DNA from: an uncultured Pelagibacteraceae bacterium
GTDB taxonomy: Bacteria; Pseudomonadota; Alphaproteobacteria; Pelagibacterales; Pelagibacteraceae
Assembly (NCBI GenBank): GCA_902626185.1
Contig: CACOEA010000008.1
Location: 1-32,886 of the forward strand
Length of the DNA: 32,886 bases
Direction of reading: 5' to 3'
Made by a program: the position numbers and the translations under genes. Shown here one piece after another: positions 26,037 to 32,808 of this stretch. Numbering within the stretch: the stretch's first letter is position 1; every line of letters begins with the position of its first letter. The notes below the pieces were generated by a model, which did not search any database, had not been told where the DNA came from, and worked only from the letters and a program-made list of their open reading frames with translations.

Positions 26037-27170
26037 ATGATTAATTCACTAGGAATAAAAAAATCACCCAAAGACACAAAGGTAGTTGTTGCTATGTCAG
26101 GTGGAGTAGACTCGTCAGTGGTAGCAGCATTAATGAAACAAGAAGGGTATGATGTTACAGGTATTACCTTAAAATTATATGATGATACAAAAAAATCTAG
26201 TTCAGGCAGACAATGTTGTGCGGGGCAAGACATTTTAGATGCCAAAAGAGTTTCGGAAACACTAGATATTAAGCACAAAATATTATTTTATCAAAAAAAA
26301 TTCAAAAGTGAAGTGGTTGACTCTTTCATAGATAGCTACGTGTCCGGAGAAACGCCTATTCCTTGCGTTCAATGCAATCAAACAGTTAAATTTAGAGACT
26401 TATTTAAATATGCTAAAGAATTAAAAGCTGATGCTCTTGTAACTGGACACTATGTTACAAGAGTACAGAAAAATGGTCACGCAAATATGTATCGGGCAAA
26501 AGATACTAATCGCGATCAAAGTTATTTTTTATTTAGCACATCACAAGCTCAACTTGACTACTTAAGGTTTCCTCTAGGTGAAATAGATAAATTTGAAACA
26601 AGATCGTTAGCTAAAAAACTTAAACTTAATGTTGCAGATAAACCAGACAGCCAAGATATCTGTTTTGTTCCTAATGGTGATTACAGTTCTGTAATTAAGA
26701 AATTTAGACCGGAGTCCTTTAAGTCAGGTAAAATACTAAATGTTTTAGGAGAAGAAATAGGCCAACATGATGGGATAGTCAACTATACTATCGGACAAAG
26801 AAAAGGTATCAAAATTTCAAATAAAAATCCATTATACGTTGTAAATATAGATGCAAATAAGAATACAATTACTGTTGGGGAAAGAAATCTTTTAGAAATT
26901 CAAAAAATCAAATTAAGGGATGTAAACATATTAGGAGAAAAAAAAGAATTCGATAATGAAATTAGTATAAAAGTAAGATCAACTGGAAAACTTTTGAAAT
27001 CTAAAATTTTTTTTTCAAATAAAACTGAAGCAAATGTAGAAATTTTAGACAGAGAAACAGGTATCTCGCCGGGTCAAGCGTGCGTTTTTTATATGAAAGA
27101 TGAGTTTGGGGATAAACTACTTGGGGGTGGTTGGATTCACAAGACATTCAATAGAAATTTATCCACTTAG
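26037..27170 (+). CDS. mnmA: tRNA-specific 2-thiouridylase MnmA
   Basis: [89 protein letters not shown]. Confidence 0.96.
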
Positions 27171-27226: not shown

Positions 27227-27234
27227 TTAATGAA

Positions 27235-27410
27235 ATTAATTAAGAGGCAACTCTTAACTGGCCATTTAGGGAAAAACCGAGAGGTTCAAGCTTAAAGGGC
27301 AGAAAGGTGAACCTAGTAGCGCTAGAATAGTTCATCGGGAAGGCTTGGCGGTAGCGCATACAACGACGAGCCAAAACTACTAAATTTCTGGGCGAAAGCC
27401 TAGAAATTTA
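27235..27410 (+). ncRNA. Candidate structured non-coding RNA, family not identified
   Basis: Locally GC-enriched intergenic segment with TTAAGAG-GCAA-CTCTTAA hairpin (27240-27257), AGGTTCA/TGAACCT (27282-27288 / 27308-27314), TAGTAG/CTACTA (27314-27319 / 27377-27382), GGCTTG/CGAGCC (27342-27347 / 27367-27372) and a 13-bp hairpin with GAAA loop (27381-27410). Strand is inferred. Confidence 0.6.
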
Positions 27411-28272: not shown

Positions 28273-29463
28273 ATGAAAAAGTCTATAAGCACATTTTTAA
28301 AACAACCCATAAAAGATAGCATCAATAGATCAGCTAATCCATCAGTCACTCGTGCATCAACTATACTTTTTAATTCTATGCAAGAACTAGTGCAACACGA
28401 AAAAAGAATTAAAGCTAATAAAAAGATTAGTTACTATAGTTACGGAAGATACGGCAGTTCTACAACTATTGAACTAGAAAATATTCTTAAAGAGCTAGAG
28501 AAAGCTTATCACGTTTTTCTTACTGGCACTGGCTTTGGCGGAGTAGCTTTGGCTATCATGAGTTTGTGTAGACCTGGAGATGAAATATTAGTTTCTGACA
28601 ACGTATACGGACCCACTAAAGAAATTTCAGAGGAGTTAGTGAACGAATTTAATATAAACGCAAAGTTTTATGATCCAGATAATTTTAATGATTTACAAAA
28701 CAAAATTACAAAAAAAACTAAAATGATTCTTGTTGAAAATCCAGGAAGTAACACATTTGAATTTCAGGATCTTTCAAAAATTGTAAGATTAGCTAAGAAA
28801 AAAAATATATTAACTTTTTTAGATAACACTTGGGGAACGCCCTTATATTTAAAACCATTAAAATTAGGATTTGACTTATCATTCACATCAGCAACTAAAT
28901 ATTTTTCAGGACATTCAGATGCAATGGGAGGATCATTAGCGGTTAATAAAAAAGTTTTTAAAAAAGTAATGTTTTTTTACAAATTATCTGGTTATAGAAT
29001 GTCTGCAGACGAAGCATATCTAATTATTAGAGGTCTTAGAACTTTAGATGTAAGACTAAAAAAGCATTATGAAAATACGTTGGTAGTAATTAATTTTTTG
29101 AAAAAACAAAAAAAGATAAAAGAAATTCTTTATCCTTACAAACCTTCTTCAAAAAGTTACAAATTATGGAAAAAATATTATTCAGGAGCGAATGGTTTAT
29201 TTTCAATTGTCGTAAAAAGTAAAAAAAAATCATCCGTGGTAAAATTTGTTAATTCATTAGAATTATTTGGTATAGGATATAGCTGGGGTGGTTTTGAAAG
29301 TTTAGCCCTTTTACAAGATCTAAGAGATGATACTAAATATACCAAAACAAGAAGGTATTTAAGATTTGGAAAGGATGAACATATTGTTAGACTTCATATT
29401 GGATTAGAAGATCCAAATGACTTGGTTCAAGATTTGAAAAAATCTTTAAGACATATTAAATAA
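28273..29463 (+). CDS. Cystathionine beta-lyase-like PLP-dependent enzyme (Cys/Met metabolism family)
   Basis: YSYGRYGSSTTIELENILKELEKAYHVFLTGTGFGGVALAIMS, FLDNTWGTPLYLKPLKLGFDLSFTSATKYFSGHSDAMGG, HIGLEDPNDLVQDL. Internal ATG at 28273 preferred over the track start. Confidence 0.92.
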   Translation: MKKSISTFLKQPIKDSINRSANPSVTRASTILFNSMQELVQHEKRIKANKKISYYSYGRYGSSTTIELENILKELEKAYHVFLTGTGFGGVALAIMSLCRPGDEILVSDNVYGPTKEISEELVNEFNINAKFYDPDNFNDLQNKITKKTKMILVENPGSNTFEFQDLSKIVRLAKKKNILTFLDNTWGTPLYLKPLKLGFDLSFTSATKYFSGHSDAMGGSLAVNKKVFKKVMFFYKLSGYRMSADEAYLIIRGLRTLDVRLKKHYENTLVVINFLKKQKKIKEILYPYKPSSKSYKLWKKYYSGANGLFSIVVKSKKKSSVVKFVNSLELFGIGYSWGGFESLALLQDLRDDTKYTKTRRYLRFGKDEHIVRLHIGLEDPNDLVQDLKKSLRHIK

Positions 29464-30692
29464 TGTTTAAATTTATTCCGAACAAACTAGCTTTAATTGT
29501 TTTATTGTCAGCTTGTACAATAATTTTAATTTCAATGGGCCTTAGACAAACCTTTGGTTTATTTTTTAAAGCATTTGAAGAAGGATTGGGCTGCACAAGA
29601 ACAGAGTTTGGCCTTGCGATTGGTATACAAATGTTATTTTGGGGAATATTTGCTCCATTATTTGGTTACTTAGCCGATAAACTTGGAGGAAGTAAGGCTG
29701 TATTTTTAGGTTTCATAATATTTGGATTGGGTATCTATATGTTATATGCAGGACCGAATACAGGAATTTTTTTTCAAATAAGTTTAGGCGTATTAATCGG
29801 TATTGCTTTAGGAGCAACTGCTATTGGGGTACCTGTCTCAGAAGTAGGCAAACATTTTCCTAATGAAACAAGAACATTGGCCACAGGTTATGTTACTGCT
29901 GCAGCTTCTGTAGGTTATTTTTTATCACCACTTTTTACTCAGTATAGTCTCGGAGTATCTGGCTGGGAACAAACATTAAAATATTTTATGTATTTCATCG
30001 CGTTTGGACTAATAGCTTCTCTTTTTTTACTACCGTCAAAGAAATTAATAGACTCCTCTAAAGCAGACAGAGAACAATCATTTACAGCGGCAATACAGGA
30101 AGCTTTTTCACACAGAGGTTACGTTCTTTTAGTTTTAGGGTTTTTTGTTTGTGGGTTTCAAATTACTCTTGTCGGCACCCATGTTCCTGGCTACATGCAA
30201 GATAGAGGAATGGGAGGCTGGTCAGCTACAATTATTTTAGCATTAATTGGTTTGTTTAATATATTTGGAACATTGGGGATGGGTTATCTTGGAACAAAAT
30301 ATAGAAAAAAAAATCTTCTAAGTATTTTATATTTTTTAAGAGCTGTAAGTATTTGTGTATTTATTTTTTCACCACCATCTCTATTAAATTCAATTATTTT
30401 TGGTATAACATTTGGCCTACTTTGGTTATCAACTGTTCCACCGACTAATGGCATAGTTGCACAAATATTTGGAACAAAATATCTAAGTACTTTATTTGGC
30501 ATAGTATTTTTGTGTCACCAAATTGGTGCATTTTTAGGAGCTTACTTAGGAGGTTATTTTTTCGATTTATACGGTTCGTATGACTACGCTTGGTACATTG
30601 CCATTGCGCTTTCAATATTTGCAACCTTAGTTCATTATCCTATTGATGAGACACCTCTTGTAAGAAAAACTGAGGAAGAAAAAGCTTTGTAA
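29463..30692 (+). CDS. MFS transporter
   Basis: Twelve-TM pattern; GLRQTFGLFFKAFEEGLGCTRTEFGLAIGIQMLFWGIFAPLFGYLADKLGGSKAVFLG. Confidence 0.9.
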   Translation: MFKFIPNKLALIVLLSACTIILISMGLRQTFGLFFKAFEEGLGCTRTEFGLAIGIQMLFWGIFAPLFGYLADKLGGSKAVFLGFIIFGLGIYMLYAGPNTGIFFQISLGVLIGIALGATAIGVPVSEVGKHFPNETRTLATGYVTAAASVGYFLSPLFTQYSLGVSGWEQTLKYFMYFIAFGLIASLFLLPSKKLIDSSKADREQSFTAAIQEAFSHRGYVLLVLGFFVCGFQITLVGTHVPGYMQDRGMGGWSATIILALIGLFNIFGTLGMGYLGTKYRKKNLLSILYFLRAVSICVFIFSPPSLLNSIIFGITFGLLWLSTVPPTNGIVAQIFGTKYLSTLFGIVFLCHQIGAFLGAYLGGYFFDLYGSYDYAWYIAIALSIFATLVHYPIDETPLVRKTEEEKAL

Positions 30693-30699
30693 TTCATAT

Positions 30700-30708
30700 T
30701 GTGGATAA
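30700..30708 (-). promoter_or_regulatory. Exact DnaA box (TTATCCACA on the minus strand)
   Basis: TGTGGATAA at 30700-30708 in an intergenic region. Confidence 0.6.
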
Positions 30709-30792
30709 CAACACCCTCTGGTTGTATTTTGAGTCCACCATGGAATCAAAAGTGAATCAAAAGGTGAACATCTTAAGTAAAAATTTATATAT

Positions 30793-30801
30793 TGTGGATA
30801 A
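30793..30801 (-). promoter_or_regulatory. Second exact DnaA box (TTATCCACA on the minus strand)
   Basis: TGTGGATAA at 30793-30801, same orientation, 93 nt from the first. Confidence 0.6.
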
Positions 30802-30876
30802 TTATTTTTGTTTAAATTGGATATCGTATTTAGTAGTGTTTTTATATCAAATTAAATTCTTAAAAAAGGAGATCAC

Positions 30877-31548
30877 ATGTTTTCAAAAGAACTAGGCGAA
30901 AAATTAGACAAATTTCATTTATTAAAACACCCTTTTTATCAAATACATTGGAATGAGGGAAAATTAACAAGAGAAATAATCAAGGATTATGCAGAACAAT
31001 ACTACCAACACGTAAAAGCTTTTCCTAGATATATCAGCGCTACGCACTCAATATGTAATGATATCGAGAAAAGAAGAATCCTTTTAGAAAATTTACAAGA
31101 TGAAGAAAATAAAGATGGAGACCACCCAAAACTATGGAAAAATTTTGCTAAAGCAATGGGTGCAGATGAAAAAGAAATAGAAAATGTAAAACTTGAAACT
31201 TTTACAAAAAAAATGATTGATAATTTCTTTTTACAAGCAAGAGCTTCTTATGCAGAAGGTTTGGCGTCTTTATATACTTATGAAAGACAAATTCCCGAGA
31301 TAGCTGAAACAAAAATTCAAGGTCTTAAAAAATTTTATGGTGTGAGCTCCAAGGAAGGTCTTGAGTTTTTTGAAGCACACAAATCAGCTGATGTAATTCA
31401 TAGGGCTGAGTGTGAAAAATTGTTAGACGGTCTATCAAAAGAAGAACAAATTAAAGCTGAAAAAGCATCTTTAAAAACAGCTAAATTTCTTTGGAACTTT
31501 TTGAGTGGTATGACTGCTAAACATAAACTAGAGCCAGTTGCAGCTTAA
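30877..31548 (+). CDS. CADD/PqqC/TenA-like family protein (heme-oxygenase-like fold)
   Basis: HPFYQIHWNEGKLTREIIKDYAEQYYQHVKAFPRYISATHS, LLENLQDEENKDGDHPKLW, ASLYTYERQIPEIAETKIQGLKKFYG, FFEAHKSADVIHRAECEKLL; SD-like AAAAAGGAGATCAC upstream. Confidence 0.85.
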   Translation: MFSKELGEKLDKFHLLKHPFYQIHWNEGKLTREIIKDYAEQYYQHVKAFPRYISATHSICNDIEKRRILLENLQDEENKDGDHPKLWKNFAKAMGADEKEIENVKLETFTKKMIDNFFLQARASYAEGLASLYTYERQIPEIAETKIQGLKKFYGVSSKEGLEFFEAHKSADVIHRAECEKLLDGLSKEEQIKAEKASLKTAKFLWNFLSGMTAKHKLEPVAA

Positions 31549-31566
31549 AGACCAAATTAAAGCAAG

Positions 31567-31947
31567 ATGAAAAACGACAATCACGTCTGGGACAATAAAC
31601 TCCCAACAGCTCAGATGTTAGGTCGATGGCAACCATGGCATGCAGGACATCAAAAACTTTTTGAGGAAATACTTAAAAAAACCGGACAGGTAAATATAAT
31701 GGTTCGAGATGTAAAAGGAGTTGATGACAATCCTTTTGATTTTGAAACTGTAAAAAAGAATATTTTTGAAGCCCTGAAAGATTATAAAAATAGAATAAAG
31801 ATTACATTGGTTCCAAATATTACAAATATTTGTTATGGAAGAGGAGTAGGATACAAAATTGAGGAGATAGTTCTTGATGAAAAAACCCAACAAATTTCAG
31901 CAACAAAAATTAGAGAACAGATGAGAAAAGAGGGAAAACTTAAATAG
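31567..31947 (+). CDS. Nucleotidyltransferase (cytidylyltransferase-like fold) family protein
   Basis: MLGRWQPWHAGHQKLFEEIL (HxGH motif) and ISATKIREQMRKEGK (ISxTxxR-like). Confidence 0.8.
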   Translation: MKNDNHVWDNKLPTAQMLGRWQPWHAGHQKLFEEILKKTGQVNIMVRDVKGVDDNPFDFETVKKNIFEALKDYKNRIKITLVPNITNICYGRGVGYKIEEIVLDEKTQQISATKIREQMRKEGKLK

Positions 31948-32016
31948 TTGCGATTGGTTCTCACTTGACCTGCTATAATCACATATATAAAATAATTATT
32001 CTAGGAGAAATTCATT

Positions 32017-32808
32017 ATGTTTACAAATAATCCGTTCGCAGATTTAGCATTAATAATTCCAGCAGCAGCGATGCAATATTTTGTTGTAGCAATGGTGTTA
32101 TTAGTAATAATTAGCACTGGTTTAGATATGCTTCATAAGAAAAATGTAGTTTATTTTTTTAGGAACGCTAAAAAGGCAAAAAAATTTGCTAAAACCGAAT
32201 TAAGTACTGGAAAAAAAACTGCGGTTATTTTAAAGACAGTCGCTCACGACATTGCAACAACTTCAGAGCTTGGTATGGGCAAAAGAAGATTGGCTCATGT
32301 TCTAGGCATGTATGGCACAATATTATTTTGGATTACCTCTGCTGTCTTAATTTTTAAATACACTGATGGATCAATTGCACCGACCTATATTACTTCGTTG
32401 TGGCATGCAGGAGCATTATTAACATGCTTAGGAGGATATTGGTTTTGGTTTTTTTTAAGGGTTGACGTATCTGCTGAAGCTCATCCATGGTATAGAATCA
32501 TAACTGCTGATTTATTCGTGCTAGCCTTACTAGCTTGTTCAACATTTGGTTTTGCGTGGTCATACACACAATTTTCAAACATGATCGGACTTAGCTATTT
32601 ATTTTTAATATTATATATAATTTCTAATTTGGTTTTATTTGGTGGAGTTTACTGGTCAAAATTTGCTCATATGTTTTATAAGCCAGGAGCAGCAATACAA
32701 AAAAATTTAGCAGAGGCTGATGGCTCTAGAGACAATTTGCCACCACCAGCTGACGCTCCAGAACGATTTGGTTTAGGAATTAAAAGAGAACAACCAAAAC
32801 ATTATTAA
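32017..32808 (+). CDS. Multi-TM protein, probable adenylylsulfate reductase membrane anchor (AprM-like)
   Basis: Five or six TM segments with AHVLGMYGTILFWITSAV and LWHAGALLTCLGGYWFWFF; AprM identity rests on recalled gene order and general resemblance. Confidence 0.55.
   Translation: MFTNNPFADLALIIPAAAMQYFVVAMVLLVIISTGLDMLHKKNVVYFFRNAKKAKKFAKTELSTGKKTAVILKTVAHDIATTSELGMGKRRLAHVLGMYGTILFWITSAVLIFKYTDGSIAPTYITSLWHAGALLTCLGGYWFWFFLRVDVSAEAHPWYRIITADLFVLALLACSTFGFAWSYTQFSNMIGLSYLFLILYIISNLVLFGGVYWSKFAHMFYKPGAAIQKNLAEADGSRDNLPPPADAPERFGLGIKREQPKHY

Follow-up and report, generated by a model that had tools for sequence, protein, structure and literature searches.

A mid-arm DNA module of SAR11 bacteria with DnaA boxes and three phased GANTC sites as a candidate control region corresponding to Rfam RF01827

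In a contig of an uncultured Pelagibacteraceae bacterium (the window hereafter, meaning the whole stretch of 32,886 nucleotides that was analysed), the intergenic region upstream of a CADD-family gene carries a short conserved module in which DnaA boxes accompany three helically phased GANTC sites. The module has a fixed anatomy, is present in nearly all genomes of its family and lies midway along the replichore, and both CcrM and GcrA are encoded in the same genome. Judging from the sequence, it is best explained, with a probability that we put at roughly 0.4, as a protein-binding stretch of DNA recognised by DnaA and by a protein that reads GANTC, being neither an RNA gene nor an origin of replication. 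Two points are mainly new: the Rfam family RF01827, to which the module corresponds, seems to be a DNA element carrying sites for DnaA and CcrM, and the mid-arm position is kept despite the change of locus.

Anatomy of the module in the window

The features of the region are given in Table 1. The original prediction had described two exact DnaA boxes around three GANTC sites, and this description holds. The two boxes read TGTGGATAA in identical orientation and are the sole exact TTATCCACA within the window, and the near-match noticed by the end of mnmA, TTATCCACT, is found at 27159. The whole-genome count of boxes, proposed then as a check, gives 3 exact boxes in the 799-kb draft genome (G000), 2 of them at this site, where they are 93 bp apart; by simple arithmetic, 3 boxes in 799 kb would be expected to form by chance only about 0.001 pairs lying ≤100 bp apart. 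The GANTC sites themselves, GAGTC at 30731 and GAATC at 30743 and 30754, form the single place in the window where three such sites lie ≤24 nt apart, with 0.04 expected, and a sample of 1.6 Mb taken from four relatives contains only one further three-site cluster, which is HTCC1062's own copy of the module. Since GANTC is depleted genome-wide in these SAR11 genomes (observed/expected 0.50-0.65), the cluster is all the more conspicuous. Beyond what had been predicted, the site also contains two GAATCAAAA repeats, GAACAT, GGTTGTA and a match to an Rfam family. Elsewhere in the window, the IMES-2 RNA motif (RF02035, 156.7 bits) lies at 27233-27374, downstream of mnmA.

Table 1. Features of the module region, in positions of the window
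Feature	Position	Strand	Remarks
Intergenic region	30693-30876	.	Between MFS transporter gene (29463-30692) and CADD-family gene (30877-31548)
Left DnaA box, TTATCCACA	30700-30708	-	≤1 mismatch in 68/81 CADD-locus copies; distance to the right box 90-93 bp
GGTTGTA block	30720-30726	+	Conserved; left edge of the module
GANTC site 1, GAGTC	30731-30735	+	GAGTC in 81/81 CADD-locus copies
GANTC site 2, inside repeat GAATCAAAA	30743-30751	+	12 bp past site 1; N = A in 54/55 aligned copies
GANTC site 3, inside repeat GAATCAAAA	30754-30762	+	11 bp past site 2; N = A in 53/55 aligned copies
GAACAT	30766-30771	+	Invariant; 12 bp past GANTC site 3
Spacer	30772-30792	.	Sequence unconserved, length nearly constant (right box 27 or 28 bp past GAAC in 81/81 CADD-locus copies)
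Right DnaA box, TTATCCACA	30793-30801	-	Among CADD-locus copies, exact in 78/81 and with 1 mismatch in 3/81
Rfam RF01827 'SAR11_0636 sRNA' match	30720-30809	+	49.3 bits, E 9.5e-8, gathering score of 67 not reached; sequence-only model R1 also matches
CADD family putative folate metabolism protein (TIGR04305), downstream gene	30877-31548	+	

Conservation and distribution

The relatives of the CADD gene belong to Pelagibacteraceae (SAR11), one of the most abundant groups of ocean bacteria, and upstream of the gene the three GANTC sites recur at the 12/11 bp spacing in 80/80 related loci. With the window included, the core GAGTC-12-GAATC-11-GAATC-12-GAAC, followed by the box 27 or 28 bp on, is present in 81/81 copies. 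Conservation of the boxes among relatives had also been proposed as a check, and with one mismatch allowed the right box is retained in every one of these copies and the left box in 68. In the aligned copies the conservation is limited to short blocks at fixed helical spacing.

Searched for with ≤2 mismatches, and with the reversed pattern as a control, the core pattern is found in 106 of the 118 genomes of the family, usually in 1 or 2 copies each, while the reversed pattern has 0 matches in the family genomes. Outside the family the core pattern is absent from all alphaproteobacteria searched (0/237). Of 33 near-complete genomes from the order, the sequence-only model R1 matches 30; the three that it misses are all three members of another family. 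Copy number per genome is one to three, often two or three. The window's own genome has a second copy (L089, at G000:C19:119-206), upstream of a GFA-type gene within a GFA/tolC cluster that is followed by recA in other genomes; its box reads TGTGGACAA. The strong copies L095 and L099 of genus g8 are without a recognisable box.

Gene context

It is noted that the neighbouring genes are named from our reading of their translations, with the exception of CADD (TIGR04305). The module is flanked by MFS and CADD at the window's locus. In genus g1 it lies directly upstream of CADD, with a second copy between glycosyltransferase and GFA genes; in g4 it lies between umuDC and SOUL or GFA genes, followed by tolC and recA; in g5 between dxs and DUF2237 and between SDR and rhomboid genes; and in g10 between umuDC and FNR and between GMC and TauE genes. 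CADD is present in g5, g8 and g10, whereas all seven g4 genomes that were tested lack it and yet carry the module. Because the neighbours differ between genera, being convergent in some cases, and because the tested g4 genomes are without CADD, a role for the downstream CADD gene alone, which the original prediction had considered equally possible, is unlikely. In the stretch 30877-32808, CADD is followed by a small nucleotidyltransferase-like gene and then a QmoC-like membrane gene.

Weaker copies in g4 lie directly upstream of mraZ-ftsZ, with the RNase P RNA gene on their other side (L223 2978-3055, corresponding to HTCC1062 38978-39054, and L224-L227, L232 and L233); the HTCC1062 copy, though weaker, has an exact box. 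These copies are candidates for DnaA/CcrM control of ftsZ, and in some alphaproteobacteria ftsZ is predicted to be GcrA-regulated (PMC7987155). Together with the copies beside umuDC and the g1 module just upstream of CADD, they argue for an alternative in which the module is an operator or promoter element, with DnaA and/or GcrA-CcrM switching the adjacent gene (CADD-apr, mraZ-ftsZ, umuDC) as at an ordinary cell-cycle site. By contrast, several strong copies, including L096, L097 and L230, lie between convergent genes, where no mRNA promoter is needed, the neighbours vary from genus to genus, and promoter-like matches are at chance level. As an account of the module in general we consider this alternative possible but rather unlikely. 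In addition, partial or weak copies are found at typA (L228, L229, L094, L098, L108), with hemA adjoining in g10 and glnK/amtB in g8; in complete genomes they lie far nearer parS, at 0.10-0.13.

CcrM, GcrA and the reader of the GANTC sites

The check on the presence of ccrM gave a clear result, CcrM being encoded in the window's genome (6pbd, E 3.7e-139), as is GcrA (7ye1, E 8.9e-28). Both PF01555 (CcrM) and PF07750 (GcrA) are present in 10/10 genomes tested; CcrM in SAR11 has been reported already (PMC3973325), and a CtrA ortholog is reported to be absent from Pelagibacter/SAR11 (PMC2877005). The GcrA consensus is YGAKTCK, a motif that is dispensable in Brevundimonas (PMC7987155), and none of the window sites, TGAGTCC, GGAATCA and TGAATCA, matches it.

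Moreover, since N of the inner sites is nearly always A (Table 1), the reader protein would see more than GANTC, and a regulator that is neither CcrM nor GcrA may be the reader, which counts against our own reading. Taken further, it could be proposed that another regulator reads GAATCAAAA and GAACAT, the GANTC sites and the DnaA box being incidental or secondary, and the A-tracts and GAACAT are indeed conserved as strongly as GANTC. This stronger version is improbable in view of the DnaA box, which ranks second in conservation among the blocks and is kept separately, and of the three phased GANTC sites, which in GANTC-depleted genomes are hardly a coincidence. An IHF site was rejected by inspection: AATCAA is half of the IHF consensus and the second half, TTR, is missing.

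RF01827 as RNA or as DNA

The module is the Rfam family RF01827, with which the window copy aligns end to end and the copy of genome G003 scores 119.9 bits. The family, 'SAR11_0636 sRNA', was described by Meyer et al. in 2009 in HTCC1062 at 622388-622552 (PMC2704228), a locus that contains the module. The authors took the variability of the flanking genes as an argument that the RNA is transcribed on its own, and they saw no covariation in the P2 stem; DnaA is nowhere mentioned in their paper, and the GANTC sites and the box are not noted (PMC2704228).

That the module is a small RNA gene, as the curated family and its authors propose, gains something from the moderate folding of the HTCC1062-type copies (z -1.45), and we nevertheless find it quite improbable. 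When the RF01827 structure is laid on 55 copies, 71.7% of cells pair as against 71.9% in shuffles, and its covariation score is matched by 450 of 500 shuffles, in line with the authors' own lack of P2 covariation. The invariant helix of the structure is GANTC opposite GANTC, a pairing that follows from the palindromic nature of the site. Folding is weak overall (z-scores -1.5 to +0.4), and in the window region no terminator was found and promoter-like matches do not exceed chance. A structured RNA was rejected on covariation, folding and the missing terminator, and RF01827 has instead the look of a DNA element that carries sites for DnaA and CcrM.

Chromosome position and the question of an origin

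With parS, which adjoins mnmG, taken as the marker of the origin region, the 11 single-contig genomes have 15 strong copies, all at 0.212-0.334 of the chromosome from parS (277-428 kb). It should be noted that the placements are not all independent owing to synteny, perhaps only five being so, and that a conserved order of genes may account for part of the mid-arm position. The module keeps this position though its locus differs between genera. The orientation is with the replication fork in 12 of the 15 strong copies, and so not in all. In G005 there is one module per arm, 365 and 370 kb from parS, and likewise in G030, at 428 and 418 kb. In G039, which belongs to the window's genus, two copies facing each other are 419 kb apart on one contig without mnmG; this fits a mid-arm placement of both and is no proof of it.

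GC skew had been proposed as a check on the origin, and it was computed here from sampled 20-kb stretches of four genomes. SAR11 skew is weak and mostly tracks gene orientation. The best position is 1060-1110 kb in G005 (parS at 1107 kb) and 140-180 kb in G008 (parS at 122 kb), both clearly above the shuffled null, and 360-370 kb in HTCC1062 (parS at 345 kb), which is marginal (0.60 vs 0.57 for the null); in G003 the skew is below the null and not significant. The skew favours the parS region in the first three, and in none of the four genomes does it indicate a module as the origin.

The classical place of the alphaproteobacterial origin is the gap between hemE and ppsR. In g1, g4 and g5 genomes this gap lies near parS and is conserved, with a length of 261-282 bp and 13-18% GC. 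In the genomes checked, the gap (L110, L185-L190), which is the presumed SAR11 origin, contains neither GANTC nor an exact DnaA box. In HTCC1062 no TTATNCACA DnaA box is found near parS, in 340-380 kb. In genus g8, hemE lies about 600 kb from parS in another gene neighbourhood (L191, L192; G016 412363, G008 718082).

In E. coli, one half of oriC is made up of 13-mers with GATC, then box R1, and the module, with a box beside repeats that carry methylation sites, is reminiscent of that half; yet that the module is a chromosomal origin, the second option of the original prediction, is extremely improbable, with the module 277-428 kb from parS, the skew backing no module, one to three copies per genome in place of a single one, and the hemE-ppsR gap near parS instead. 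Gene context, skew and the distance from parS all led to the rejection of the origin reading. The E. coli 13-mers also suggested a DUE-like element by analogy, which was dropped, as the position excludes oriC, and a phage or mobile origin was set aside because neither phage records nor viral contigs gave a match. What had been proposed as a DnaA-controlled region or origin is thus supported in its first half: a control region is likely, given the conserved boxes, GANTC sites and spacing and the encoded CcrM and GcrA, with DnaA binding as a prediction, while the origin half falls with the parS distance, the skew and the hemE-ppsR gap lying elsewhere.

Discussion

We propose a model for the module as a binding site for DnaA and a GANTC-reading protein. 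In the model, DnaA would bind the boxes, of which there is one, or two in the CADD-locus copy of this genus, beside the three helically phased GANTC sites; the GANTC sites would be methylated by CcrM; and GcrA or another regulator would read GAATCAAAA in a methylation-dependent manner. When the fork passes half-way through replication, the site would become hemimethylated and doubled, and the binding of DnaA or GcrA would be altered until CcrM restores the methylation. The outcome may be a mid-arm cell-cycle checkpoint or a site of DnaA titration or activity, by analogy with datA, DARS1 and DARS2 of E. coli, and at some places, such as mraZ-ftsZ, the module may act as a promoter switch. A more far-reaching form of the model, which is speculative and which we hold to be doubtful, is that SAR11, without CtrA, has a DNA sensor dedicated to this purpose at mid-arm, with one on each arm and equidistant from the origin in some genera, where the fork would hemimethylate the three phased CcrM sites and reset the adjacent DnaA site, so as to couple the progress of replication to initiation and division.

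Should the module prove to be a DnaA/CcrM site, what Rfam curates as an RNA family would really be a control site in DNA, and there would be a small and concrete target for studying replication timing and the cell cycle of SAR11 without CtrA. Position-conserved DnaA control sites are known chiefly from gammaproteobacteria; they would then extend to alphaproteobacteria, with methylation as an added layer.

Finally, we compare the module with known systems. With RF01827 it shares the identical sequence block and length, and it differs in that the family is described as a structured RNA whereas no covariation is found here. The alphaproteobacterial oriC at hemE-ppsR likewise has DnaA boxes in AT-rich DNA; it occupies another place in the genome, and in SAR11 that gap is without GANTC and without an exact box. 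The GcrA-CcrM promoters of Caulobacter and Brevundimonas are similar in having intergenic GANTC, with both proteins encoded and weak module copies upstream of mraZ-ftsZ, whereas the module combines a DnaA box at a fixed place with three phased sites, often stands between convergent genes, and has sites in the window that do not fit YGAKTCK. For datA and DARS of E. coli, the relative distance from oriC is conserved (PMC4585315, PMC5010248), and the cores contain three DnaA boxes in DARS and five in datA (PMC4585315). The module is unrelated to them in sequence, has one or two boxes (the left one only in CADD-locus copies) and adds three CcrM-type sites, with one or two strong copies per genome; having no three-box core, it is no member of that group. 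By analogy, it would still be closest in function to datA, DARS1 and DARS2, as a non-coding chromosomal DnaA-box site for which a conserved relative distance from the origin is likewise found, in 15 copies that are not all independent.
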